Below are positions 50,426 to 62,405 of a stretch of DNA of 64,000 nt, piece after piece. Under the pieces are notes generated by a model. The model saw only the letters and a list, made by a program, of their open reading frames with translations, had not been told where the DNA came from and did no database searches. The translations under genes and the position numbers were made by a program. This stretch comes from Saccharopolyspora spinosa NRRL 18395. GTDB lineage: Bacteria > Actinomycetota > Actinomycetes > Mycobacteriales > Pseudonocardiaceae. Numbering within the stretch: position 1 is the stretch's first letter; each line of letters begins with the position of its first letter. The stretch lies in assembly GCF_000194155.1 (NCBI RefSeq), contig NZ_GL877878.1, positions 1,266,351 to 1,330,350 of the forward strand, in the 5' to 3' direction.

Positions 50426-51316
50426 TCAACGGCGCGGCGGCAGCAGTTCCATCGAGTCCGCCAGCACCCGGCGCGGCGTCGTCGGCAGCGGCTCGTCCGA
50501 AGCCCGCCAGCCCAGGCGCAGCACCAACTGGGGATTGCCTCCACCGCCGAGGACCGCCGCCCGGACCCGTTCCCGCTCCTCGGCGACCTCGCCCAATTGG
50601 TTCAGCGGGCAGGTGACCAGTCCCTCCCGCGCCGCCGCCAGCAGGACCGCGCTGAGTGCCTCCCCCACCGCCAGCCAGCTGTCGACGCGGTCGCCGCGGG
50701 TGGCCAGCACCGCTAGCTCCGCTTCGTCGGTCAGCACTGGAGCCGTCGGCTCGGGATCGTCCAGATCGGCGATCGCCTTCTGGTATTCGGGGGTTTCCCG
50801 GTATTGCGCGGCTCTCCGCAGGGCGTCGACCAGGAGCGAGCGGTGCTCAGCGGCGCGCACCAGGACGCCGTGCTCCGTCTCGGACGCGGCCCGCAGGGTC
50901 GTCAACAACTCCTGCGGAACTGTCTCCGCGCGGAATGAAAACCGCGCGGTGTGCCGCTGCCCCGCGAGACCGGCGAGCGCGACCATCTCCGGGGAGACCT
51001 GATCGCGCGGACTGAACTGGATCGACGCCAGGTGTCCAGGCTGGGCCGGGTTCGGCAGCCGGTGCACCAGTGCCCGCCAACCGAGCGCTGCGAACGCGAC
51101 CCGCGCGTGGTGCAGTGCGGCGCCGCAGCTGATCACCTGCGCGCGCCCCACCGGGTCGAGCTCCTCCGGCAACCGCGAAACGTCCAGGAACAGCTGCAGC
51201 GATCGCTCGGCGAGCAGCCACCGCCAGGGTTGGCAGTTGTGCACCGAGGGCGCTCGACACGTCAGGGACAGCGCCGAACACACGCTGTCGTAAGACGGCG
51301 CAGCGATGCGTGTCAT
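50426..51316 (-). CDS. Acg-type nitroreductase-fold protein
   Basis: About 296 residues: RAPSVHNCQPWRWLL, a nitroreductase FMN-region signature, GAALHHARVAFAALGW, AQYRETPEYQKAI and VGEALSAVLLAAAREGLVTCPLNQ with the C-terminal PQLVLRLGW. It resembles the mycobacterial Acg family (Rv2032, Rv3131), in which the fold is kept but catalytic activity may be reduced or absent. ATG 51316 is used; ATG 51355 or GTG 51334 are alternatives, none with a strong Shine-Dalgarno. Confidence 0.85.
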   Translation of the reverse strand: MTRIAAPSYDSVCSALSLTCRAPSVHNCQPWRWLLAERSLQLFLDVSRLPEELDPVGRAQVISCGAALHHARVAFAALGWRALVHRLPNPAQPGHLASIQFSPRDQVSPEMVALAGLAGQRHTARFSFRAETVPQELLTTLRAASETEHGVLVRAAEHRSLLVDALRRAAQYRETPEYQKAIADLDDPEPTAPVLTDEAELAVLATRGDRVDSWLAVGEALSAVLLAAAREGLVTCPLNQLGEVAEERERVRAAVLGGGGNPQLVLRLGWRASDEPLPTTPRRVLADSMELLPPRR

Positions 51317-51423
51317 CCACCACCACGTCCTCACGAACTCCAGGTCAAGCACCATCGTTCGCAGGGCCTACTGATCGGTCCAGGGCAAAAAGTCATAGCG
51401 CCCGCGGACCGCGATCTCGATGC

Positions 51424-52328: not shown

Positions 52329-53144
52329 ATGTCGGGTTTCGAGACGGATCGCCGCACCCCACCTGGGTTGCCGCAGACCGCGGACCGCGCGCTGCAGGTG
52401 CTGCTCGCCTTCGACCGCGGCAGACCCGAATGGGGCGTCACCGAGGTGGCCACCGAGTTCGGCCTGCACACCTCGATCGCACAGCGCCTGCTGGCGACGC
52501 TCGCGCACCGCGGATTCCTGGTGCAGGACACCGCGAACCGCCGGTACCGCATCGGCCCGGCGGCGCTGCACCTCGGCCGGATGTGGGAGCAGGCCGGGGC
52601 GCTGGACATCCTGATGCGACCGCTGCTGGCCGAGCTCGCCGAGGAGACCGGGCACAGCGCCCTGCTGGCGCTGCCGGACAGCGCGCACATGCGGTGCGTC
52701 GTGGTCGCGGAAGGCGCCGACGGCAGGCTGCGGGACTACCCGCTGACCAACGAGCTCTACCCCGCACACGCCGGCGCGACCAGCAAGTCCTTCTACGCGT
52801 TCCTGGCCGACGACATGCGGTCGAAGATCTTCACCGACCGGCCGCTGGCCCGGTTCACCGAGCGCACCGTGACCGACCTGGCCGTGTTGGAGGAGCAATT
52901 CGCCGAGATCCGGGAGGCGGGCTGGGCCTACACCCTCGGCGAGTACGACCTCGGTGTGGCCACCCTCGCGGTGCCTGTCTTCCTGCACCACGAGCCCTAC
53001 GGGAGCCTGAGCGTCGGCTGGCAGTCCGAGCAGTACCGGCACGACCCCGCCGAGTGGGTGGAGCTACTGCAGGAGACCAGTTCCCGCGTCAGCCGCCGGC
53101 TGACCAGGCCCGTCTCCCGGCGCGACCGGCGCGGCCAGTTGTGA
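52329..53144 (+). CDS. IclR-family regulator
   Basis: A 271-residue regulator: winged-helix domain (RALQVLLAFDRGRPEWGVTEVATEF, LHTSIAQRLLATLAHRGFLVQD) and the IclR effector-binding domain (LAELAEETGHSALLALPD, AHAGATSKSFYAFLADDM, VATLAVPVFLHHEPYGSLSVGW). ATG 52329. Divergent from the enoyl-CoA hydratase gene with 125 bases between, suggesting control of fatty or aromatic acid degradation steps. Confidence 0.93.
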   Translation: MSGFETDRRTPPGLPQTADRALQVLLAFDRGRPEWGVTEVATEFGLHTSIAQRLLATLAHRGFLVQDTANRRYRIGPAALHLGRMWEQAGALDILMRPLLAELAEETGHSALLALPDSAHMRCVVVAEGADGRLRDYPLTNELYPAHAGATSKSFYAFLADDMRSKIFTDRPLARFTERTVTDLAVLEEQFAEIREAGWAYTLGEYDLGVATLAVPVFLHHEPYGSLSVGWQSEQYRHDPAEWVELLQETSSRVSRRLTRPVSRRDRRGQL

Positions 53145-53251
53145 TCGGCGGCCGGATGTGATCGGCTTTCTCCACGCGGGTGGAGAGCTGCCGGTGGCCG
53201 CCGGGTAGGGTCTCGTCGGCGTCGAAGGTGGTCGGACAGGGGGCTGAGCTC

Positions 53252-53434
53252 ATGAACCGCAAGGCCGTGATCGTGGTCGTGGCGCTCGTGGTCGTCGTTC
53301 TTGGCTCGCTGCTGGTCCGCGACCCGGTCGGGTCGGCGGACATCGTCCGGTCCGGGTTCGACCTGCTGGTGTCGGCGATCAGCGCAATGGCCAATTCGCT
53401 GACCACGTTCTTCCAGCACCTATTCGCTGGCTGA
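53252..53434 (+). CDS. Small membrane protein (60 aa)
   Basis: ATG 53252 with AGGGGG upstream encodes MNRKAVIVVVALVVVVLGSL as an N-terminal helix followed by a mostly helical tail (DLLVSAISAMANSLTTFF). A longer in-frame start at 53180 is less likely. No family named; such single-helix proteins are common in this group. Last gene before the AT-rich interval. Confidence 0.72.
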   Translation: MNRKAVIVVVALVVVVLGSLLVRDPVGSADIVRSGFDLLVSAISAMANSLTTFFQHLFAG

Positions 53435-54040
53435 CCGGCCAGGACTGCGCTGGGCCGACGGGCGCCATCGCCGACAACGACAATTTATTCACCAATTGCG
53501 CTGTCCGATACTTTCCAACCCAATGAATCCAGGTTGGCCGGAAACATACCCATGATTGATTTCCCGCATGTGAAAGCATAGCCAGCGACCTAAAAAGGAT
53601 CGTGCTCAATACCCACTCCCCCAACACCAAAACAAAACACGGAAAAAGCTCGGGACCAAATGCCCTAATTCCTCACGCGCCCCGCCTATGCGGTCTACAA
53701 AGCCGAAAAAATCCGCCGAACCAACACGAAAGCCAGCTTGTCCTACCCGGGTGGACCGCTTAGGGTGGGAACCGGTCACATCGAGGAAAGAGCCGGCCGA
53801 GGTCAGTGCCAAATGACATCGGCTACTGGGGAAGACCGACTCACCGGCGAAGTGGCCCGGCGCAGGAGAAAAGATTTCCGGCCGGTCGCAGTTCGCAAAG
53901 CTCCCACCGGGCACACGTTCGATCCAGGGCCCAGATCGTTCCCCTCCGGTGGTCTGCGGGGGACTGGAATCTCCATGCGCTGCATGCAAGCGCGCGCCGG
54001 ATCTCAGGGTTATCCGGCACGCGACGTGCATCGACCGAAA
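53435..54040. other. AT-rich, gene-poor interval before the Trp-Gly peptide gene
   Basis: The stretch 53450-53750 is clearly poorer in GC than the rest of the window and shows no convincing gene on either strand; there is a short repeat CCAACC/GGTTGG at 53515-53537. The frame of the peptide gene stays open upstream to 53738, but its composition there (Arg/Gly/Pro-rich, no conserved pattern) looks non-coding. It probably contains the promoter of the peptide gene and may mark transferred DNA. Confidence 0.45.
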
Positions 54041-54052
54041 ATGGTGATGGGA

Positions 54053-54157
54053 ATGCAGATCAAGGACTCGTTCAGGTTCGACCGGTTCCGCTCCTGGGGC
54101 GGCTGGGGCGGTTGGGGCTCCGGCTGGGGCGGCTGGGGCGGCTGGGGCTGCTGGTGA
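54053..54157 (+). CDS. Trp-Gly repeat peptide, candidate modified-peptide precursor
   Basis: ATG 54053 to TGA 54157 encodes 34 residues: a basic, Phe-rich start MQIKDSFRFDRFR, then SWGGWGGWG, SGWGGWGGWG and the end CW. Seven Trp lie at positions 15, 18, 21, 25, 28, 31 and 34, so every third residue except for one step of four; the only Cys is residue 33. Other starts are in frame at ATG 54041, GTG 54044, ATG 54047 and ATG 53975; none has a strong Shine-Dalgarno. Leader-like basic part plus repetitive core, followed by direct repeats, a hairpin and an ABC exporter, suggests a ribosomally made peptide that is modified and exported. A structural or metal-binding peptide is an alternative. I recognise no known family. 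Confidence 0.6.
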   Translation: MQIKDSFRFDRFRSWGGWGGWGSGWGGWGGWGCW

Positions 54158-54167
54158 GCCCTAGTAC

Positions 54168-54200
54168 CCACAGGACCGTCCTAGACGTCCACAGGACCGT
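54168..54200 (+). repeat. Two 12-base direct repeats 21 bases apart
   Basis: CCACAGGACCGT occurs at 54168-54179 and 54189-54200; both copies are followed by a TAGACG element. The 21-base spacing equals two helical turns, so the repeats could bind a regulator on one face, between the peptide gene and the exporter gene. Confidence 0.8.
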
Positions 54201-54206
54201 GTAGAC

Positions 54207-54242
54207 GCGTAGCTCCCGCTCCTCCCGGGGCGGGAGCTACGC
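54207..54242 (+). terminator. Strong hairpin between peptide and exporter genes
   Basis: A perfect 13-base stem, GCGTAGCTCCCGC (54207-54219) and its complement (54230-54242), with a ten-base loop. It may act as a terminator or partial attenuator that makes the peptide transcript more abundant than the exporter transcript, a common layout in peptide operons. Confidence 0.85.
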
Positions 54243-54248
54243 CTGTAA

Positions 54249-56129
54249 TTGGGGGGTGAGGATTTGCCGGGATTGGTGAGCTGGCTGTTCCGGCCGGCCG
54301 AACGGGACACCGAGGGGCTGGTCGAGCGCGCGCCGACGGTGCGAGTGCGCGAGGTTTTCCGCCGCTTCTGGCCGGATGCGCGGCAGTACCGCGGCTGGCT
54401 GCTGGTCAGCTTGGTGCTGGTGCTGGTATCGCCGCTGCTGGACGCGGCCGCGATCTGGTTGTTCAAGGTGCTCATCGACGACGTGCTGGCCCCACGCAAC
54501 TTCTCGCTCTTCCCCGCGATCGCGGTGGCGTACGCGTTGATAACGCTGGTGGCGGGCGCGCTGGACTTCTGCGGGCAATACCTGGCGACGTGGATCGGCG
54601 AGAACTTCCTGAACAAGTTGCGCACCAAGGTCTTCGCCCACCTGCACACGCTGTCGATCGGGTTCTTCGACCGCAGGCGCATCGGCGACACGCTGTCCCG
54701 GCTCACCGGGGACGTGGCCGCCATCGAGAGCCTGGTGCTGTCCGGGGTCGCGCAGACCTTCGCCTCGGTCGTGAAGGTCCTGCTGTTCGCCGGGGTGCTG
54801 TTCTACCTCGACTGGCTGCTGGCCCTCGTGTCACTGGTCGGGGCTCCGCTGTTCTGGGTCGTCGCCAAGTTCTTCGCGCGGCGGATCAGGGAGGCATCCC
54901 GCGAGGTCCGCGGTCGCAGCGGCTCGATCTCCACCGTCGCCGAGGAAAGCCTCGGCAACGCGCCGCTGATCCAGGCCTACGGGCGGGAACAGGCCGAGGT
55001 AGACCGCTTCACCCGGCAAAGCCGCGGCAACGTCTCCGCCGCGCTGACCTCGGTGCGAGTCGGTGCGCTGTTCTCCCCGCTGGTCGACCTGCTGGAAGTG
55101 GTCGGCGTGATGGCCATCCTCGGCGTCGGCATCTACGAGCTGTCGGCGGACCGGATCAGCCTCGGCGGGCTGCTGGTGTTCCTGGTCTACCTGTCCCAGC
55201 TCTACACGCCGGTGCGCAACCTCGGCCAGCTGTCCAACACCGTCTTCGCCGCGTCCGCCAGCGCGGAGCGCATCATCGATCTGCTCGACCAGCGCCCATT
55301 GGTTCAGAACCCGGCGCACCCGATCCCGCTGCCGCGGCGGATCACCGGCCGCCTGGAGGTCGACCGGATCGGCTTCCGCTACCCCGACACCGCCGCCGAC
55401 GTGCTGCGCGGGGTGAGCTTCTGCGCCTTGCCGGGGCAAACCACCGCAGTGGTCGGAGCCAGCGGCGCGGGCAAGTCCACGCTGACCAAGCTGCTGCTGC
55501 GCTTCTACGACCCCACCCACGGCCGGATCCTGCTGGACGGCATCGATCTGCGGGCCGTGGACCTGGACGCGCTACGCGCGAACATCGCGATCGTGCTGCA
55601 GGAAACCCTGCTGCTGGACGGCACCATCGCGGACAACATCCTGGCCGGGCGCTCGGACGCCACCCGCGAGCAGCTGGTCGAGGCGGCCGAGGCCGCCGAC
55701 GCGCACGAGTTCATCCAGCAGCTACCGGAGGGCTACGACACCCGGGTCGGGCAGCGCGGTCGCCTGCTCTCCGGAGGGCAGCGGCAGCGCATCGCGATCG
55801 CCCGCGCGATGATCCGCGACGCCCCGATCCTGCTGCTGGACGAGCCGACGACGAGCCTGGACGCCGAAGCCGCGCAGCGGATCCTGGCGCCGCTGCGCCG
55901 GTTGATGGCCGGGCGCACCACCATCGTGATCTCACACAACCTGCTCACGGTCCGCGATGCGCAGCAGATTATCTACCTGGACCGCGGGACGATCACCGAA
56001 GCCGGCACCCACGACGAGCTGCTGGCCAACAACAACGGCTACGCCCACCTCTACCGGCTGCACCACCCGGAGCGTCCGGTCGGACCGCCGGAAACTCCGG
56101 CCCGACCGGACGGGCACATGCCCAGTTAG
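54249..56129 (+). CDS. ABC exporter (fused membrane and ATPase domains)
   Basis: A 626-residue half-transporter: six-helix membrane domain (WLLVSLVLVLVSPLLDAAAIW, LFPAIAVAYALITLVAGALD, TFASVVKVLLFAGVLFYLDW and others) and an ATPase domain with Walker A GASGAGKSTLTK, Q-loop LQETLLLDG, signature LSGGQRQRIAIARAM, Walker B ILLLDEPTTSLD and the switch His in VISHNL. It lacks an N-terminal peptidase domain, so it would not cut a double-Gly leader. It lies 91 bases after the Trp-Gly peptide gene. TTG 54249 is used; TTG 54264 or GTG 54276 are alternatives. Functions as a homodimer; the substrate could be the peptide. Confidence 0.9.
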   Translation: MGGEDLPGLVSWLFRPAERDTEGLVERAPTVRVREVFRRFWPDARQYRGWLLVSLVLVLVSPLLDAAAIWLFKVLIDDVLAPRNFSLFPAIAVAYALITLVAGALDFCGQYLATWIGENFLNKLRTKVFAHLHTLSIGFFDRRRIGDTLSRLTGDVAAIESLVLSGVAQTFASVVKVLLFAGVLFYLDWLLALVSLVGAPLFWVVAKFFARRIREASREVRGRSGSISTVAEESLGNAPLIQAYGREQAEVDRFTRQSRGNVSAALTSVRVGALFSPLVDLLEVVGVMAILGVGIYELSADRISLGGLLVFLVYLSQLYTPVRNLGQLSNTVFAASASAERIIDLLDQRPLVQNPAHPIPLPRRITGRLEVDRIGFRYPDTAADVLRGVSFCALPGQTTAVVGASGAGKSTLTKLLLRFYDPTHGRILLDGIDLRAVDLDALRANIAIVLQETLLLDGTIADNILAGRSDATREQLVEAAEAADAHEFIQQLPEGYDTRVGQRGRLLSGGQRQRIAIARAMIRDAPILLLDEPTTSLDAEAAQRILAPLRRLMAGRTTIVISHNLLTVRDAQQIIYLDRGTITEAGTHDELLANNNGYAHLYRLHHPERPVGPPETPARPDGHMPS

Positions 56130-56146
56130 GAGGACACGACACGGCA

Positions 56147-57340
56147 CTAGCGCCAGGATTCGCCGCGCCGAAGCGCGCAAAACCACCGTCGGCCGATACC
56201 AGCAAGCAATTTTCCCTTGCGCACCAAGAAGTTCTGGTTCACGAGGTGCTGCTGGTACCGCCACGGCGGATGCTCGCCGTACCGACTGGCTATTGCGAAG
56301 GTGAAGTCCACGGCGTTGCTGTTGGCGTAGCGGTCGACGTTCTCGAACCAGGCCATGCTGGTGCGCGCGGCGGCTTGCGCCAGGCGCAGCTGCGCGTGGC
56401 CTTGCTCGTTGAAATCCTTCAATGCTGCTTTCGAGTCACCGTGGTCGAACAGGTTCTGCGCGAGCGCTACCGCATCCAGCAGCGCCAACTGGGTTCCGGA
56501 GCCGATGGTGAAGTGCGTTGTGTGCGCGGCATCGCCGATCAGGATCATGTTGTCGTGCAGCCACGACTCGTTGTAGACGTGGGTGAAGCGCTGCCAGGAA
56601 GCGGCTTTCCCGCGGGACTGGCTGACCAGCGAGCGGCCCTGCAGCGGGCGGGCAAAGATCCGCTCCAGCACCCGCGTGCTCTCCTCGTGGCCTAGCCGGT
56701 CCAGGCCCAGGTACCGCCAGGCCAGCTCCTGGCATTCGACGACGACGGTGCTGACCCCGGCGCTGCTCGGGTAGGCGTGGAACCAGATCCAGCCCTCCGG
56801 GGTCTCCTCGAAGTCGTAGGTGAACATGTCGAACCGCCGGTCCGTGCCCAGCCAGATGTAGGGGTTGCGCCCCTGGTCCACCCAGGTGCCGAACTCGTCG
56901 GCGTACTGCCCCCGGATCCGGCTGTTCGCGCCGTCGGCCACCACGACCAGGTCGGCGTCGGAGAACTCGGACACGTCGTCGACGGCGCGCTCGTACTCGA
57001 TGTGTGCCCCGACGTCCGTCGCCCGCTCGGCGAGGATCTCCAGCATCGTGGCGCGGTTGATGCTGTAGCCGTACCCCCCGAGATACGCCTTGTCCTGGCT
57101 GCACATCTCGATGACCTGCCCCTGCCACAACGTCGACGCCGCGCGGATCCGCTCAGCGCTTCCCCGGTCGTTGCGGTACAGCGTGTCCAGCAGGTCATCC
57201 CCGAACACGACACCCCAGCCATAAGTGGCGCCGCGCGGATCGCGTTCGACTACCGTCACGTCGTGCCCGGCGTCCCGCAGTTTCGTCGAAATGGCGAAGT
57301 ACAGCCCAGCGGGGCCAGCTCCGATGCACACAATTTTCAC
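56147..57340 (-). CDS. FAD-dependent aromatic monooxygenase (VioD / salicylyl-CoA hydroxylase type)
   Basis: A 397-residue FAD protein starting KIVCIGAGPAGLYFAI (GxGxxG), then DPRGATYGWGVVFGDDLLD, VVADGANSRIRGQY (DG motif) and LIGDAAHTTHFTIGSGTQLAL (GD motif). The TYGWGVVF segment is typical of anthraniloyl/salicylyl-CoA monooxygenases and of VioD, a hydroxylase acting on indole-derived substrates. The C-terminal oxidoreductase domain of the bifunctional CoA enzymes is absent. GTG 57340 has AGGAGG nine bases upstream. Convergent with the ABC exporter, 17 bases between stops, next to the Trp-rich peptide locus; modification of Trp is possible but unproven. Confidence 0.87.
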   Translation of the reverse strand: MKIVCIGAGPAGLYFAISTKLRDAGHDVTVVERDPRGATYGWGVVFGDDLLDTLYRNDRGSAERIRAASTLWQGQVIEMCSQDKAYLGGYGYSINRATMLEILAERATDVGAHIEYERAVDDVSEFSDADLVVVADGANSRIRGQYADEFGTWVDQGRNPYIWLGTDRRFDMFTYDFEETPEGWIWFHAYPSSAGVSTVVVECQELAWRYLGLDRLGHEESTRVLERIFARPLQGRSLVSQSRGKAASWQRFTHVYNESWLHDNMILIGDAAHTTHFTIGSGTQLALLDAVALAQNLFDHGDSKAALKDFNEQGHAQLRLAQAAARTSMAWFENVDRYANSNAVDFTFAIASRYGEHPPWRYQQHLVNQNFLVRKGKLLAGIGRRWFCALRRGESWR

Positions 57341-57509
57341 GGCACAGCACCTCCTGGAAACAGGCGGGCAGCTGCGCAGGCGCACCAGGCGGTACGTCTT
57401 GTCCGCGTGACGCCCTCGTTGTACACCGCTCTCCGACTCGTCGCACCCCGCAATCCAGCGGTCCAGATGTCGGACCAGTAGGCAGGAACCTCGATTGCGG
57501 CCGCCCGTA

Positions 57510-58170
57510 GGCCGCGATACTCGGCGACGACCAGATAGGTTTCGTGGTCACCGACCACCTGTGCGACCTGATGCCCGGCACCGACCACCGGGACGCATCG
57601 CTGGGGGTGGAGGCCGAACGGGGCAGCAACGCGTTCACGTTTCCGACGATCCTGAAGCGCCTGGTCGAACACCCGGAAATCCGCCGGAGCTCCGATGTAC
57701 CGCCAGGACCAGCTTCGCGCGTTGGAGGAGTTCGGCCCGGTGCTGGTGCAGTACCACGGCGTGGGCGAGGTCACCGGCAACATCACCGTGCTGCCACCGG
57801 ACCGGCACGACCGCCAGCTGCCCGACGCCCTGGACTTCGGCAGCTGGGAGCAAGACCGGTTCCCGAGCAGGAGCGGCGATTCCTGGCGGAGCGCCCGTTC
57901 ACGACATCCCGCGAGCACGGCTCGTTCCTGGCGGTCCTGCGCAGCCTGATGGTGTGTACGTCCTGCGTGATCTACTGTGGCTGCCGAACCTGTTCAAAGT
58001 CTTCGGAGAACCGATCTACACCGGCATCGTAGGAACACCCCAGGGGCCGAACAAGCCATTCACCCACTGCCACCGGATCGGCCCATTGAGGACGGAGGAC
58101 GGGCGCGATTTCCGTTTCCTGGCTGGGAGGTTCGGACGTTCAGGCATTGTGATCGGGCGCTTCGAGCGTC
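57510..58170 (+). pseudogene. Decayed or frameshifted gene of unknown family
   Basis: Protein-like pieces occur in successive frames on the plus strand. The first, from about 57510, gives DQIGFVVTDHLCDLMPGTDH and FTFPTILKRLVEHPEIR. From ATG 57695 another gives MYRQDQLRALEEFGPVLVQY and EVTGNITVLPPDRHDRQLPD. Then come the -1 frame piece RRFLAERPFTTSREHGSFLA and the next -1 piece DGVYVLRDLLWLPNLFKVFG with PIYTGIVGTPQGPNKPFTH. The three later pieces could be one gene with two single-base deletions. No family recognised; no stop can be placed safely. It separates the flavin monooxygenase from the PfkB gene. Confidence 0.45.
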
Positions 58171-59175: not shown

Positions 59176-60285
59176 ATGCGCGCGATGAAATCGCTGATCG
59201 GGGACGCCGTGCTCGCCGTCCTCATCACGTTGATCGGCATCGTCGGCACATTGGGCGCCGACCACTGGACTGCGACCGCGCACCGGCCGATCGACGGCGT
59301 CGGCCTGGTGCTGGTGGCGGCCACCGGGCTGGTCCTGGTGCTGCGGCGTCGCCAACCGGTGGTGACGCTGCTCGTCGCCGCCGCCCTCACCTCGACGTAC
59401 CTGCTCCTGGGCTTCACCTACGGCCCGATCCTGCTGGCGTTGATGATCGCGGTCTACACGTTGGCCAGGCACCGCCCGCCGGCCACCTCGGTGCCGACGG
59501 CATTCGCCGCCCTCGTCTTGCTGCTGGTCCACATCTTCACCAGCGCAACCGCGGTGCCCGGCCTGCTCGGGGTGATCCCGGGTTCGGCGTGGGTGGTGGT
59601 GCCGTTCGCGATGGGCAGCGTCGTCCGGTTGCAGCGCGAGGCAGCGTCCCGGGCCAGGGCCGAGGTACTGCGCCAGCGCGTGGACGACGAGCGGTTGCGA
59701 ATCGCGCAGGAGGTGCACGACGTCGTGGGGCACGGGCTGGCAGCCATCAAGATGCAAGCCGACGTGGCGCTGCACGTGCTGCCGAAGAAGCCGGAGCAGG
59801 CGGAGGTCGCGCTGGAGGCGATCAGCCGCACGAGCAGTGATGCGCTGGAAGAGCTGCGCGCGACACTGGCCTTGGTGCGTCGGACCGCCTCGCAAGGCCC
59901 GACCCCGGGCTTGGCCAGGCTCGACGACCTGCGGAAGCGGATGAGCGAAGCCGGTGTTCAGGTCCAGTTGGTCACGAACGGTCGGCCGCGGGAGCTGCCC
60001 GCCGCGGTCGACCTGACCGGCTACCGGATCCTGCAGGAGTCGCTGACCAACGTGCTGCGCCACAGCGGCGACAAGCGCGCCGAGGCCACCATCGACTACG
60101 CGACCGACGCCCTGGTCATCACGGTCACCAACCCGCTCACCGGATCGCCGGGCGACAGCGGCGGGCTCGGCATCCCCGGAATGCGGCGGCGGGTCGCGTC
60201 GCTGGGTGGCGAGTTCACCGCCGGTCCCACCGGGGACGGCCGGTTCGAAGTGCAAGCCCGCCTGCCCATCGAAGGACATCCATGA
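59176..60285 (+). CDS. Sensor histidine kinase (HisKA_3 / NarL-type)
   Basis: A 369-residue membrane kinase: five or six N-terminal helices (residues 8-145), then the dimerisation box IAQEVHDVVGHGLAAIKMQ with His181, N-box YRILQESLTNVLRHSG and G-box GGLGIPGMRRR. The compact sensor has no large extracellular domain and may sense a membrane signal. ATG 59176 used (ATG 59185 also possible). Its stop overlaps the start of the response regulator by four bases. Confidence 0.93.
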   Translation: MRAMKSLIGDAVLAVLITLIGIVGTLGADHWTATAHRPIDGVGLVLVAATGLVLVLRRRQPVVTLLVAAALTSTYLLLGFTYGPILLALMIAVYTLARHRPPATSVPTAFAALVLLLVHIFTSATAVPGLLGVIPGSAWVVVPFAMGSVVRLQREAASRARAEVLRQRVDDERLRIAQEVHDVVGHGLAAIKMQADVALHVLPKKPEQAEVALEAISRTSSDALEELRATLALVRRTASQGPTPGLARLDDLRKRMSEAGVQVQLVTNGRPRELPAAVDLTGYRILQESLTNVLRHSGDKRAEATIDYATDALVITVTNPLTGSPGDSGGLGIPGMRRRVASLGGEFTAGPTGDGRFEVQARLPIEGHP

Positions 60286-60928
60286 TCACCGTGCTGATCG
60301 TCGACGACCAGGACCTGGTGCGCATCGGCCTCCGCACCCTCATTGACAGCGAGGACGACCTGACCTGCGTCGGCGAGGCCGCTGACGGGTTGGCGGCGGT
60401 GGCTGCGGCGCGCGAGCACCGCCCGGACGTGGTGCTGATGGACGTGCGGATGGCTGGCGTCGACGGGTTGGAGGCGACCCGCCGGATCACTGCGGCCCCG
60501 GAGCTGCCGGACACCAAGGTGATCGTGCTGACCACCTTCGAGATCGACGAGTACGTCTTCGCCGCGCTGCGCGGCGGGGCCAGCTGCTGAAGGACACCAA
60601 GCCGGTCGAGCTGCTCCGGGCGATCCGGCTCGTCGCCGGCGGTGAGGCGCTGCTGGCGCCGTCGGCGACCAGGCAGTTGGTCCGGGAGTTCGTGTCGATG
60701 GCGCCGCGGTCGCGCCGACCGCACCCGCAGCTGCACACACTCACCGAACGGGAGCGCGAGGTGCTGGGCCTGGTGGCGGAGGGCTTGAACAACGAGGAAA
60801 TCGCCGAACGCCTGGTGGTCAGCCCGGCGACGGCGCGCACCCACGTCAGCCGGGCGATGATCAAGTTGGGCGCGCGGGATCGCGCGCAACTCGTCGTCTT
60901 CGCCTACCAGTCAGGGCTGGCCGACTAG
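60282..60928 (+). pseudogene. NarL/LuxR-type response regulator, frameshifted
   Basis: The receiver domain is normal (VLIVDDQDLVRIGL with the acidic pair, the phosphorylated Asp in VVLMDVRMAGVDG, and VIVLTTFEIDEYV) up to ALRGGAS, where TGC TGA ends the frame at about 60590. The rest, LKDTKPVELLRAIRLVAGGE and the LuxR helix-turn-helix (LTEREREVLGLVAEGLNNEEIAERL), continues in another frame to TAG 60928. The usual ASGFLLKD sequence suggests that seven bases are missing. Either inactive or a sequence error; the partner kinase is intact. Confidence 0.87.
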
Positions 60929-61010
60929 CGCAGCGCGTACTCGCGGAAAGCCGGTCGCATCCCCATAAAAGGAGGTTCGCCGGGACTTGGCGGTAAGGCA
61001 GACTGTCGCC

Positions 61011-62405
61011 GTGCTCGTCACCCTGACCACCACCCACCGCCCGGCAACCGACCTCGGTTTTCTGCTGCACAAGCATCCAGAGAAGGCCCAAGCCTTCCCC
61101 GTGGCCGCCGGAACCGCGCACGTCTTCTACCCGATGGCCGCCGAGGAGGAATGCACCGCCGTGCTGCTGCTGGACGTCGATCCGATCAAGTTGGTGCGGG
61201 GCAAGCGCAACGACGCGTTCACGCTGGGCCAATACGTCAACGATCGGCCGTACGCGGCGGGTTCGCTGCTCGCGGTGGCGTTGGGTTCAGTGTTCCGGAC
61301 CGCGTTGAACGGGCGTTGCGATGCGCGGCCGGAACTGGCCGAGACCCCGATTCCGCTGCGGGTGAGGGTTCCCGCACTGCCGTGCCGAGGAGGCGTGGAG
61401 CTGGCTGCGCGGCTGTTCGAGCCGCTGGGCTGGCAGGTCGAGGCCACACCGGTGCCGTTGGATCCGCAGGTTCCCGGCTGGGGCGACTCGCACTACGTGG
61501 ACCTGCGATTGTCCGGCGAGCTGCGCGTCTCCGCCGCTCTCAAGCACCTCTACGTGCTGATCCCCGTGCTGGACAATGCGAAGCACTACTGGGTCAGCGG
61601 GGATGAGGTGGACAAGTTGCTGCGGGCCGGTGACGGCTGGCTCGCCGACCACCCCGAACGGGAGCTGATCAGCAACCGATACCTGGCGCACCGCAGGGCG
61701 TACGTCCGTTCTGCCCTGGCCCAGCTCGCCGAGTCCGATCCGGACGAACTGGACAACGCGCTCGTCGCGCCGGTGGTGACCGAAACATCCGAACAGGACA
61801 TTCCGCTCGCCGTGCAGCGCCGGGGCAGCGTGCTCGCCGCGCTCAAGGCCAGCGGGGCTCGCCGCGTCCTCGACCTCGGTTGTGGCGGTGGGGCTTTGCT
61901 GCACGACCTGATCCAGGAGCCGTCGTTCACCCAGATCGTCGGGGTGGACGTGTCGGCTCGCGCGCTCGAAGTCGCCGCGCGCCGTTTCGAGCGGCTGCCT
62001 GAGCGCCGCCGCGAGCGGCTCACGCTGCGCCAGTCCGCGCTCACCTACGTGGATCCCGCCCTGGCCGGGTTCGATGCGGCCGTGCTCATGGAGGTCATCG
62101 AGCACGTCGACCCGAGTCGGCTGCCCGCTCTGGAGCACGCGGTGTTCGCCGCCGCACGACCGAACACGGTCATCATGACCACCCCGAACGTGGCGTACAA
62201 CGTGCGTTTCGAGAACCTGCCCACCGGCGCGTTCCGGCATTCCGACCACCGCTTCGAGTGGACGCGGTCGCAGTTCCGGCAGTGGGCCCAGGGCGTGGCC
62301 GATCAGCACGGCTACGCGGTCAGGCACCTTCCGGTCGGCCCGGAGGATCCGGAAGTCGGGGCGCCGACCCAGATGGCAGTGTTCAGCAGGACGGTGGTGG
62401 CCTGA
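61011..62405 (+). CDS. hen1: 3'-terminal RNA ribose 2'-O-methyltransferase Hen1
   Basis: A 464-residue bacterial Hen1. The N-terminal domain begins LVTLTTTHRPATDLGFLLHKHP, characteristic of the family, and works with the ligase of Pnkp; the C-terminal domain is a class I methyltransferase (RRVLDLGCGGGALLHDL, MEVIEHVDPSRLP, TTPNVAYNVRFENLP, with the metal-binding Glu and His in EVIEH and RHSDHRFEW). It methylates the 2'-OH at the 3' end of cleaved RNA before repair. GTG 61011 is chosen by homology; a TTG 24 bases upstream is possible. Overlaps the pnkp start (TGATG). Confidence 0.95.
   Translation: MLVTLTTTHRPATDLGFLLHKHPEKAQAFPVAAGTAHVFYPMAAEEECTAVLLLDVDPIKLVRGKRNDAFTLGQYVNDRPYAAGSLLAVALGSVFRTALNGRCDARPELAETPIPLRVRVPALPCRGGVELAARLFEPLGWQVEATPVPLDPQVPGWGDSHYVDLRLSGELRVSAALKHLYVLIPVLDNAKHYWVSGDEVDKLLRAGDGWLADHPERELISNRYLAHRRAYVRSALAQLAESDPDELDNALVAPVVTETSEQDIPLAVQRRGSVLAALKASGARRVLDLGCGGGALLHDLIQEPSFTQIVGVDVSARALEVAARRFERLPERRRERLTLRQSALTYVDPALAGFDAAVLMEVIEHVDPSRLPALEHAVFAAARPNTVIMTTPNVAYNVRFENLPTGAFRHSDHRFEWTRSQFRQWAQGVADQHGYAVRHLPVGPEDPEVGAPTQMAVFSRTVVA

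Follow-up and report, generated by a model that had tools for sequence, protein, structure and literature searches.

A Trp-Gly repeat peptide gene linked to a VioD-type flavin monooxygenase gene across actinobacterial families, a candidate undescribed RiPP-like system

What does a gene for a 34-residue Trp-Gly repeat peptide do beside genes for an ATP-binding cassette (ABC) exporter and a flavin monooxygenase (FMO), and is it a gene at all? The three lie in the window analysed here, a 64,000-nt stretch of Saccharopolyspora spinosa NRRL 18395 (contig NZ_GL877878.1, positions 1,266,351 to 1,330,350). An earlier note, made from the sequence of the window, had proposed that the peptide is the precursor of a secreted product, possibly Trp-oxidised or Cys-linked. 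Its description of the gene order is accurate, with direct repeats, a 13-bp perfect hairpin, the ABC exporter gene and a convergent FMO gene following the peptide gene. We find that the peptide gene is real and conserved, and that it is linked to the FMO gene in several actinobacterial families. Our reading, to which we give a probability of about 0.6, is that the locus encodes an undescribed system resembling the ribosomally synthesized and post-translationally modified peptides (RiPPs), in which the FMO would oxidise Trp residues of the peptide core and the product would be exported.

Linkage was measured on a sample of FMO loci that is not random: the best 80 loci from a contig scan with an FMO alignment (A1), loci found by searching 394 class-level and 297 family-level genomes with profiles, and 40 wider stretches. 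The 185 FMO rows were reduced to 138 distinct ones (some still near-copies), leaving out matches of fewer than 340 aligned residues, including L031, which has the peptide. Up to 5 kb of each flank was scanned for the peptide, and the loci were then placed on a tree. Two calls were set by eye: a hit at L145 in a glyoxalase-like frame was struck, and L188 (MSSIKSVFVYVNNRRRRHGWGWGHHRWGRK, only three Trp) was added.

All peptide-bearing loci in this set fall in one branch of 80 rows (SH-aLRT, an approximate likelihood ratio test, 92 on a quick tree), where the peptide gene is present at 60 loci and absent from 12, the other 8 lying at contig or stretch edges. Outside the branch the peptide was found at 0 of 58 loci (44 with more than 2.5 kb of flank on both sides, 14 at edges), with no hit in 499,933 bases of flank. 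Fisher's test of peptide against branch gives 2.7e-21 with relatedness ignored, and on the tree the peptide label changes 10 times against a mean of 45.1 in shuffles. The FMO gene is convergent with the peptide and ABC genes in Saccharopolyspora and co-directional with its partners in most other lineages; because the arrangement differs between lineages, the linkage is not mere inherited synteny. Distances are short also where the ABC gene is missing: from the aligned part of the FMO to the end of the closest peptide frame is 92-310 bp at 34 of 35 such peptide loci and 447 bp at the remaining one (L207). The expectation that the peptide keeps company with the monooxygenase is thus borne out in several families, and the association points to an exported, enzyme-modified peptide of a kind not yet described.

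The earlier note had worried that Trp-Gly repeats arise easily in GC-rich DNA. The open reading frame (ORF) might then be a chance product, an explanation invited by its low sequence complexity and by the unrelated ORFs that passed the scan threshold, two in the flanks of L185 and L207 and one at L145. The comparison refutes it. A DNA pattern for WGGWGGW has two matches in the whole 8.58-Mb genome, both within the peptide gene; a six-frame scan of the window for small ORFs rich in aromatic residues and Gly returned the peptide as its sole match; and the flank scan, productive at three quarters of the branch loci (60/80), was empty outside the branch. We give the chance explanation practically no credence. 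Peptide genes of Nocardia (n = 8) are coding sequence under purifying selection, with a ratio of nonsynonymous to synonymous differences (pN/pS) of 0.28 and different codons in 412 of 823 aligned Gly pairs.

The window gene (54053-54157) translates to MQIKDSFRFDRFRSWGGWGGWGSGWGGWGGWGCW, whose seven Trp stand at residues 15, 18, 21, 25, 28, 31 and 34, the last in a C-terminal Cys-Trp; the regular Trp spacing described before was therefore read correctly, save that one step is of four residues and not three. The peptide matches no Pfam or NCBIfam model, and the lasso leader pattern (Y..P.L, with Thr at −2) is absent from it. Among Saccharopolyspora loci, closest strains aside, similarity starts at about GMQIKD and residues further upstream differ, which supports the start codon at 54053. 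The lack of a strong ribosome binding site, listed earlier as a weakness, is partly answered by a GAAA..GTGAT-like purine-rich element that recurs directly 5′ of the peptide ATG across the genus and that we take to match the 3′ end of 16S rRNA.

When 297 family genomes were searched with the window peptide (P0003), 32 gave a match at E ≤ 1, among which clear relatives were read in G275, G280, G269, G256, G102 and G138; the rest look like chance. In G217 and G174 the match itself was read as chance, and a true peptide lies elsewhere in the genome. A search of 397 order genomes with the longer G102 peptide found none (0/397, G000 included), but this search is insensitive and carries no weight.

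Across the family the repeat core is kept while the N-terminus differs, falling into three types. In Saccharopolyspora, MQIKDSF, MQIKDTF, MQIKDVF or MRIKDVF precedes Trp-Gly cores of varying length, the whole peptide having 34 residues in the window, 55 in G275 and 57 in G280. Other Pseudonocardiaceae begin with MRIKEIF, MKIATIF, MKIRAIF, MRISTVF or MSSIKSVFVY, and their cores consist of Trp, Gly and often His or Asn. This short type, found in Saccharopolyspora, related Pseudonocardiaceae and Geodermatophilus, usually has the ABC exporter gene adjoining. Precursors of Nocardia (8 loci, 110-120 residues) and Streptomycetaceae (6 loci) carry, by inspection, a Sec-like signal sequence, at loci without that ABC gene. 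Frankiaceae precursors begin like MKATYEAPALxxxGSFRxxTG, and the NCBIfam model NF033521 (lasso_leader_L3) was passed by 9 of the 11 tested, out of 22 Frankiaceae peptides found. Their leader has a Tyr-17/Pro-14/Leu-12/Thr-2 spacing, in which Tyr to Thr is the lasso leader register described in the consulted part of PMC10368454. Tandem pairs of Trp-Gly precursors occur in four Frankiaceae loci (L136, L138, L139 and L142). The idea of a Cys-linked product is not supported, because many members carry no Cys (Nocardia, most Frankiaceae peptides read, and Pseudonocardiaceae loci L183, L186 and L189).

Sorted by reading of their N-termini, the 60 peptide loci comprise 25 with the ABC gene, 3 with a short leader and no ABC gene (L035, L045 and L207), 14 with a signal-like N-terminus and 18 from Frankiaceae. 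Leader type thus matches exporter presence, the short leader going with the ABC gene and the signal-like one without it. Of the 80 branch loci, 27 have an orthologue of the exporter (64-97% identity) no more than 3 kb from the FMO; they comprise 25 peptide loci and 2 at a contig edge. That peptide and exporter are conserved together, as the earlier note supposed, is therefore true of Saccharopolyspora and its relatives and not universally, the count being 25 of 60 peptide loci. Flanks limit the comparison in Frankiaceae, where 14 of 18 peptide loci have at most 1.5 kb on one side; absence of the ABC gene there applies to L060 and L217-L219 only, because most of the others have about 1.5 kb of flank. 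Unlike peptidase-containing bacteriocin exporters, the window protein has no C39 peptidase domain among the 11 Pfam families listed for it.

The likely activity of the FMO is suggested by its closest solved structures. In a profile search of the PDB these are VioD (8gqr and 3c4a, E 1.9e-58 and 9.7e-56), one of them named 'Probable tryptophan hydroxylase'; the next matches, methylhydroxypyridine carboxylate oxygenases, stand at about 1e-20 and weaker. VioD hydroxylates an indole ring. Given these closest structures, oxidation of Trp may fairly be supposed, and oxidation of the core Trp by the FMO would be the most economical reading. The FMO is filed under neither of its neighbouring named families because both curated cut-offs failed: it scores 197.8 bits against 620 for the VioD equivalog NF053547, and 369.1 against 1078 for salicylyl-CoA 5-hydroxylase NF006101 (PRK08255), its best NCBIfam match, a two-part full-length protein of which it covers only positions 2-360 of 768. 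Among the matches listed, its nearest relatives are other Saccharopolyspora FMOs. Plasmid records contribute 64 relatives, all below 60% identity. No defence-system model matches the FMO or the peptide, and three matches to the ABC protein are of ATPase type. Precedents for enzymes that act on peptidyl Trp, in the portion of PMC12424672 consulted, are the flavin-dependent halogenase MibH of NAI-107 and the ammosamide pathway. MibH differs in being a halogenase, whereas the Trp_halogenase match of the FMO falls below its cut-off (17 against 21 bits).

We picture the system as follows. A short ribosomal precursor would join an interchangeable N-terminal address to a Trp-Gly repeat core, which in some members also holds Phe, Tyr, His, Asn and Asp. 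While still in the cytoplasm, core Trp would be oxidised by a dedicated FMO, with ring hydroxylation of the VioD kind as the likeliest chemistry. The modified peptide would then leave the cell, through the adjacent ABC exporter where the precursor has a short leader and by Sec where it has a signal peptide. For Frankiaceae precursors, the lasso-type leader suggests that they are recognised by RiPP recognition element (RRE) proteins encoded elsewhere. We infer, then, that the core is the FMO substrate, that the oxidation is of the kind just named, that the modified form is what is exported, and that its role is extracellular, perhaps as a surface coat, an adhesive or a bioactive repeat peptide.

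The family resembles RiPPs in three respects: its precursors are short, with a repeat core behind a conserved N-terminal region; a tailoring-type enzyme is encoded in linkage with them; and some members have a linked transporter for export. A leader and a core are recognised with a model (NF033521) for Frankiaceae and by sequence comparison for the rest, and the tailoring-type enzyme gene is linked to the precursor gene in most of the branch (60 of 80 loci). What sets the family apart from known RiPPs is that the linked enzyme is a VioD-type FMO, the modification itself being predicted. Among neighbours scanned with Pfam, which cover part of the loci and not every neighbour, there is no lanthionine, YcaO or radical-SAM family. 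No description of these peptides was found in the full text of open-licence PMC papers, a collection that leaves most subscription journals outside, nor in the consulted parts of PMC7794033, PMC12424672 and PMC10368454.

Lasso peptides share their leader type with the Frankiaceae Trp-Gly precursors. Unlike lasso precursors, the Frankiaceae Trp-Gly cores read lack, by inspection, both Asp and Glu at core residues 7-9, and inspection of the ORFs around the FMO in four Frankiaceae loci found no B1, B2 or cyclase gene. Lasso-type loci also occur in the same genomes, with precursors of their own that bear this leader motif (4 of 7 lasso-type stretches fetched: L229, L230, L232 and L234), and the cores of three of these precursors (L229, L230 and L234) start with GRWGWGRD and are themselves Trp-Gly rich. 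In the six genomes with an FMO and a B2-type gene on one contig, the distance between the two ranges from about 55 kb to several hundred kb. An exception is L050/L051 (Nocardia nova and N. elegans), with a lasso-type locus and its separate precursor about 2.1 kb past the FMO. At L050 11321-15760, and likewise at L051, this locus holds genes for an asparagine-synthase-like cyclase, a PqqD-type protein, a Transglut_core3 protein and an ABC protein, with a lasso-like precursor frame just upstream; lasso-type genes were not found near the other Nocardia loci.

Several observations weigh against an FMO devoted to the peptide and against export of its product in the way proposed. The 12 branch members without the peptide comprise one Saccharopolyspora paralogue clade of 10 (L215, L200, L202, L204, L205, L209-L211, L040 and L059; L215 is in the S. 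spinosa genome itself, at C1:1519001-1520038), together with L039 and L042. The clade has no ABC gene and no partner kept across it, and at L039 nothing of the ABC gene is nearby except a 54-residue remnant. Because these 12 have neither peptide nor ABC gene, this FMO type can function without a linked peptide; the paralogues could act in trans or on another substrate. Conversely, G138 holds an orphan peptide gene, with no FMO match in the profile search of family genomes: its Trp-Gly-His peptide gene (MKVTEVFRLGRDVK..., L036 4551-4796) adjoins EtfB/EtfA-like genes, named by eye. No such ABC gene lies within 3 kb at the short-leader loci L035, L045 and L207, the first of which has major facilitator superfamily (MFS) and HlyD-type genes nearby, or at the four wide-flank Frankiaceae loci. 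Streptomycetaceae cores have Phe, Tyr and His in place of many Trp. Lastly, the pN/pS check suggested in the earlier note, clear in Nocardia, comes out weaker in Saccharopolyspora (n = 13), with 0.76 for the whole gene and 0.61 for leader codons 2-8, in an alignment made uncertain by repeat indels.

Peptide and FMO might also cooperate without being substrate and enzyme. In that case the FMO would make a small aromatic compound, such as a hydroxylated phenol or indole, and the Trp-Gly peptide, once secreted, would bind it, carry it, co-polymerise with it or form a surface layer. We consider this unlikely, though it draws on real features of the data. The nearest named families of the FMO act on small molecules, salicylyl-CoA and protodeoxyviolaceinate, and the paralogue clade does without a peptide. 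TetR-like regulators, as in detoxification loci, lie 0.65-0.82 kb from the FMO in five Streptomycetaceae loci and 1.6-4.5 kb away in L035, L045 and L047, and the MFS/HlyD genes near L035 fit the same picture. Short-chain dehydrogenases and P450s each occur in 6 of 30 locus flanks. Yet across these 30 loci, from six lineage groups, only the FMO and ABC genes recur close by in at least four groups; the regulators, dehydrogenases and P450s are shared by some of the loci and lie mostly kilobases off, with P450s 0.1-8.9 kb away (one within 2 kb) and dehydrogenases at 0.02-2.8 kb. Within the core, moreover, ring-bearing residues persist at intervals of a few positions, while the remainder of the precursor varies.

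A different fate for the core would be that of a scaffold on which Trp is oxidised and from which it is then excised, so that modified Trp or short W-G pieces are secreted. Ammosamide, as presented in the part of PMC12424672 consulted, is a precedent, its peptide-borne Trp being trihydroxylated and later released, and many repeats would yield many copies per precursor. No protease family is among the recurring neighbours scanned with Pfam (other neighbours were outside the scan), and the signal-like N-termini in Nocardia and Streptomycetaceae point to export of the whole chain, which leaves the scaffold improbable. The order of Trp-rich short ORF, conserved hairpin and ABC gene recalls a Trp-codon attenuator, in which the Trp codons of the ORF would gauge charged tRNA-Trp and the hairpin would relay the signal to exporter expression. 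Codon content alone would matter there, whereas similar cores bear signal-like or lasso-type N-termini, the 110-120-residue Nocardia versions are under purifying selection with Gly kept along with Trp, and co-directional peptide-FMO loci exist without that ABC gene; attenuation is very improbable on this evidence.

Beyond an FMO that oxidises an exported peptide, it is possible, and we offer this tentatively, that the family is a new class of ribosomal peptide: a repeating Trp-Gly chain with many oxidised Trp, made by mycelial actinobacteria as a bacterial equivalent of structural or adhesive proteins that contain oxidised aromatics, with one core and one enzyme, three export or recognition addresses and, in Saccharopolyspora, control by a new structured 5′ RNA. 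A low-complexity ORF, easily dismissed, has led to a multi-family system. If the reading is true, it would give RiPPs a further class, in which one VioD-type FMO oxidises peptidyl Trp; it would show a single repeat core joined to addresses of three kinds (short-leader/ABC, Sec-like and lasso-type), and would offer a hydroxytryptophan-rich material that is genetically encoded and tunable.

Table 1. Features of the peptide locus, in window coordinates
Feature	Position	Strand	Basis and remarks
Conserved structured 5′ region, candidate cis-regulatory RNA, about 270 nt	53760..54033	+	12 Saccharopolyspora loci aligned (A7); domain 1 53760-53865, last stem 53983-54033
Purine-rich ribosome-binding-site-like element GAAAATGGTGATG	54037..54049	+	Similar elements at the same place in other Saccharopolyspora peptide genes
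Precursor peptide gene	54053..54157	+	Translation; relatives in other genomes; 14-residue leader-like part MQIKDSFRFDRFRS, then Trp-Gly repeat core
Two direct repeats CACAGGACCGT	54169-54179, 54190-54200	+	Read from sequence
Hairpin between peptide and exporter genes	54207..54242	+	Perfect stem of 13 bp without a T run
ABC exporter, a single chain with both membrane and ATPase domains	54249..56129	+	Pfam PF00664, PF00005; NCBIfam MsbA-type models below cut-offs
FAD-dependent monooxygenase, VioD / salicylyl-CoA 5-hydroxylase type	56147..57385	-	PF01494; NF006101, NF053547 below cut-off; PDB profile; conserved part from 57340; 16 relatives aligned

The covarying RNA upstream of the peptide gene is a separate, second lead. 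Its alignment has 74 consensus pairs, with 95.5% of 882 cells paired. Fourteen of the 74 pairs change on both sides, in 42 cells against 15.7 in shuffles (reached in 0 of 500), and structures slid along the alignment give 0-9 cells; the number of further pair types is not above shuffles (235/500). Because all sequences come from one genus, these covariation counts represent few independent events. Rfam gave no match at the gathering threshold in 53000-58000, and none that convinced at E ≤ 10 or 5. A covariance model of domain 1 (R1), run on 70 sources, returned 12 hits at E ≤ 2.3e-13, the next best being at E 0.16; the hits are 11 distinct loci (L041 and L191 are the same), all of them Saccharopolyspora peptide loci, and there was none at the S. 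rosea peptide locus (L043/L181). In 150 family genomes R1 occurs in four, as a single copy in each (G000, G112, G129 and G145), all with peptide loci; both the RNA and any FMO match are missing from the three other genus members among the 150 (G025, G063 and G091). We regard the element as a candidate new cis-regulatory RNA in Saccharopolyspora. A DosR-type operator upstream of the peptide was also considered and rejected, the best matches having two to four mismatches and being scattered, with no shared site.

The hairpin downstream of the peptide gene occurs once in the genome, and of 25 loci scanned, 20 have a perfect stem of at least eight pairs 3′ of the peptide stop. In 11 distinct copies of the GTAGCTCCC/GTGGCTCCC type all 141 of 141 cells pair. 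Two of its 13 pairs change on both sides, in seven cells (0 of 500 shuffles), but that number of pairs is reached in 117 of 500. The Rfam 6C RNA, tried over the stretch of repeats and hairpin, reached 25.1 bits (E 0.45), below its gathering score of 47, and was rejected.

Some genes further out complete the picture of the region. A histidine kinase gene followed by one for a 102-residue receiver-only response regulator (window 59176-60590) is kept beside the locus in L032 and L033, and a gene for a Hen1-type RNA repair methyltransferase (PF12623) lies at 60987-62405. On the other side, 2.7 kb upstream, is a nitroreductase (Acg-type) gene at 50426-51355. In Nocardia nova, genes for a universal stress protein and a nitroreductase-family protein lie upstream of the peptide-FMO pair (L050 5152-7111).

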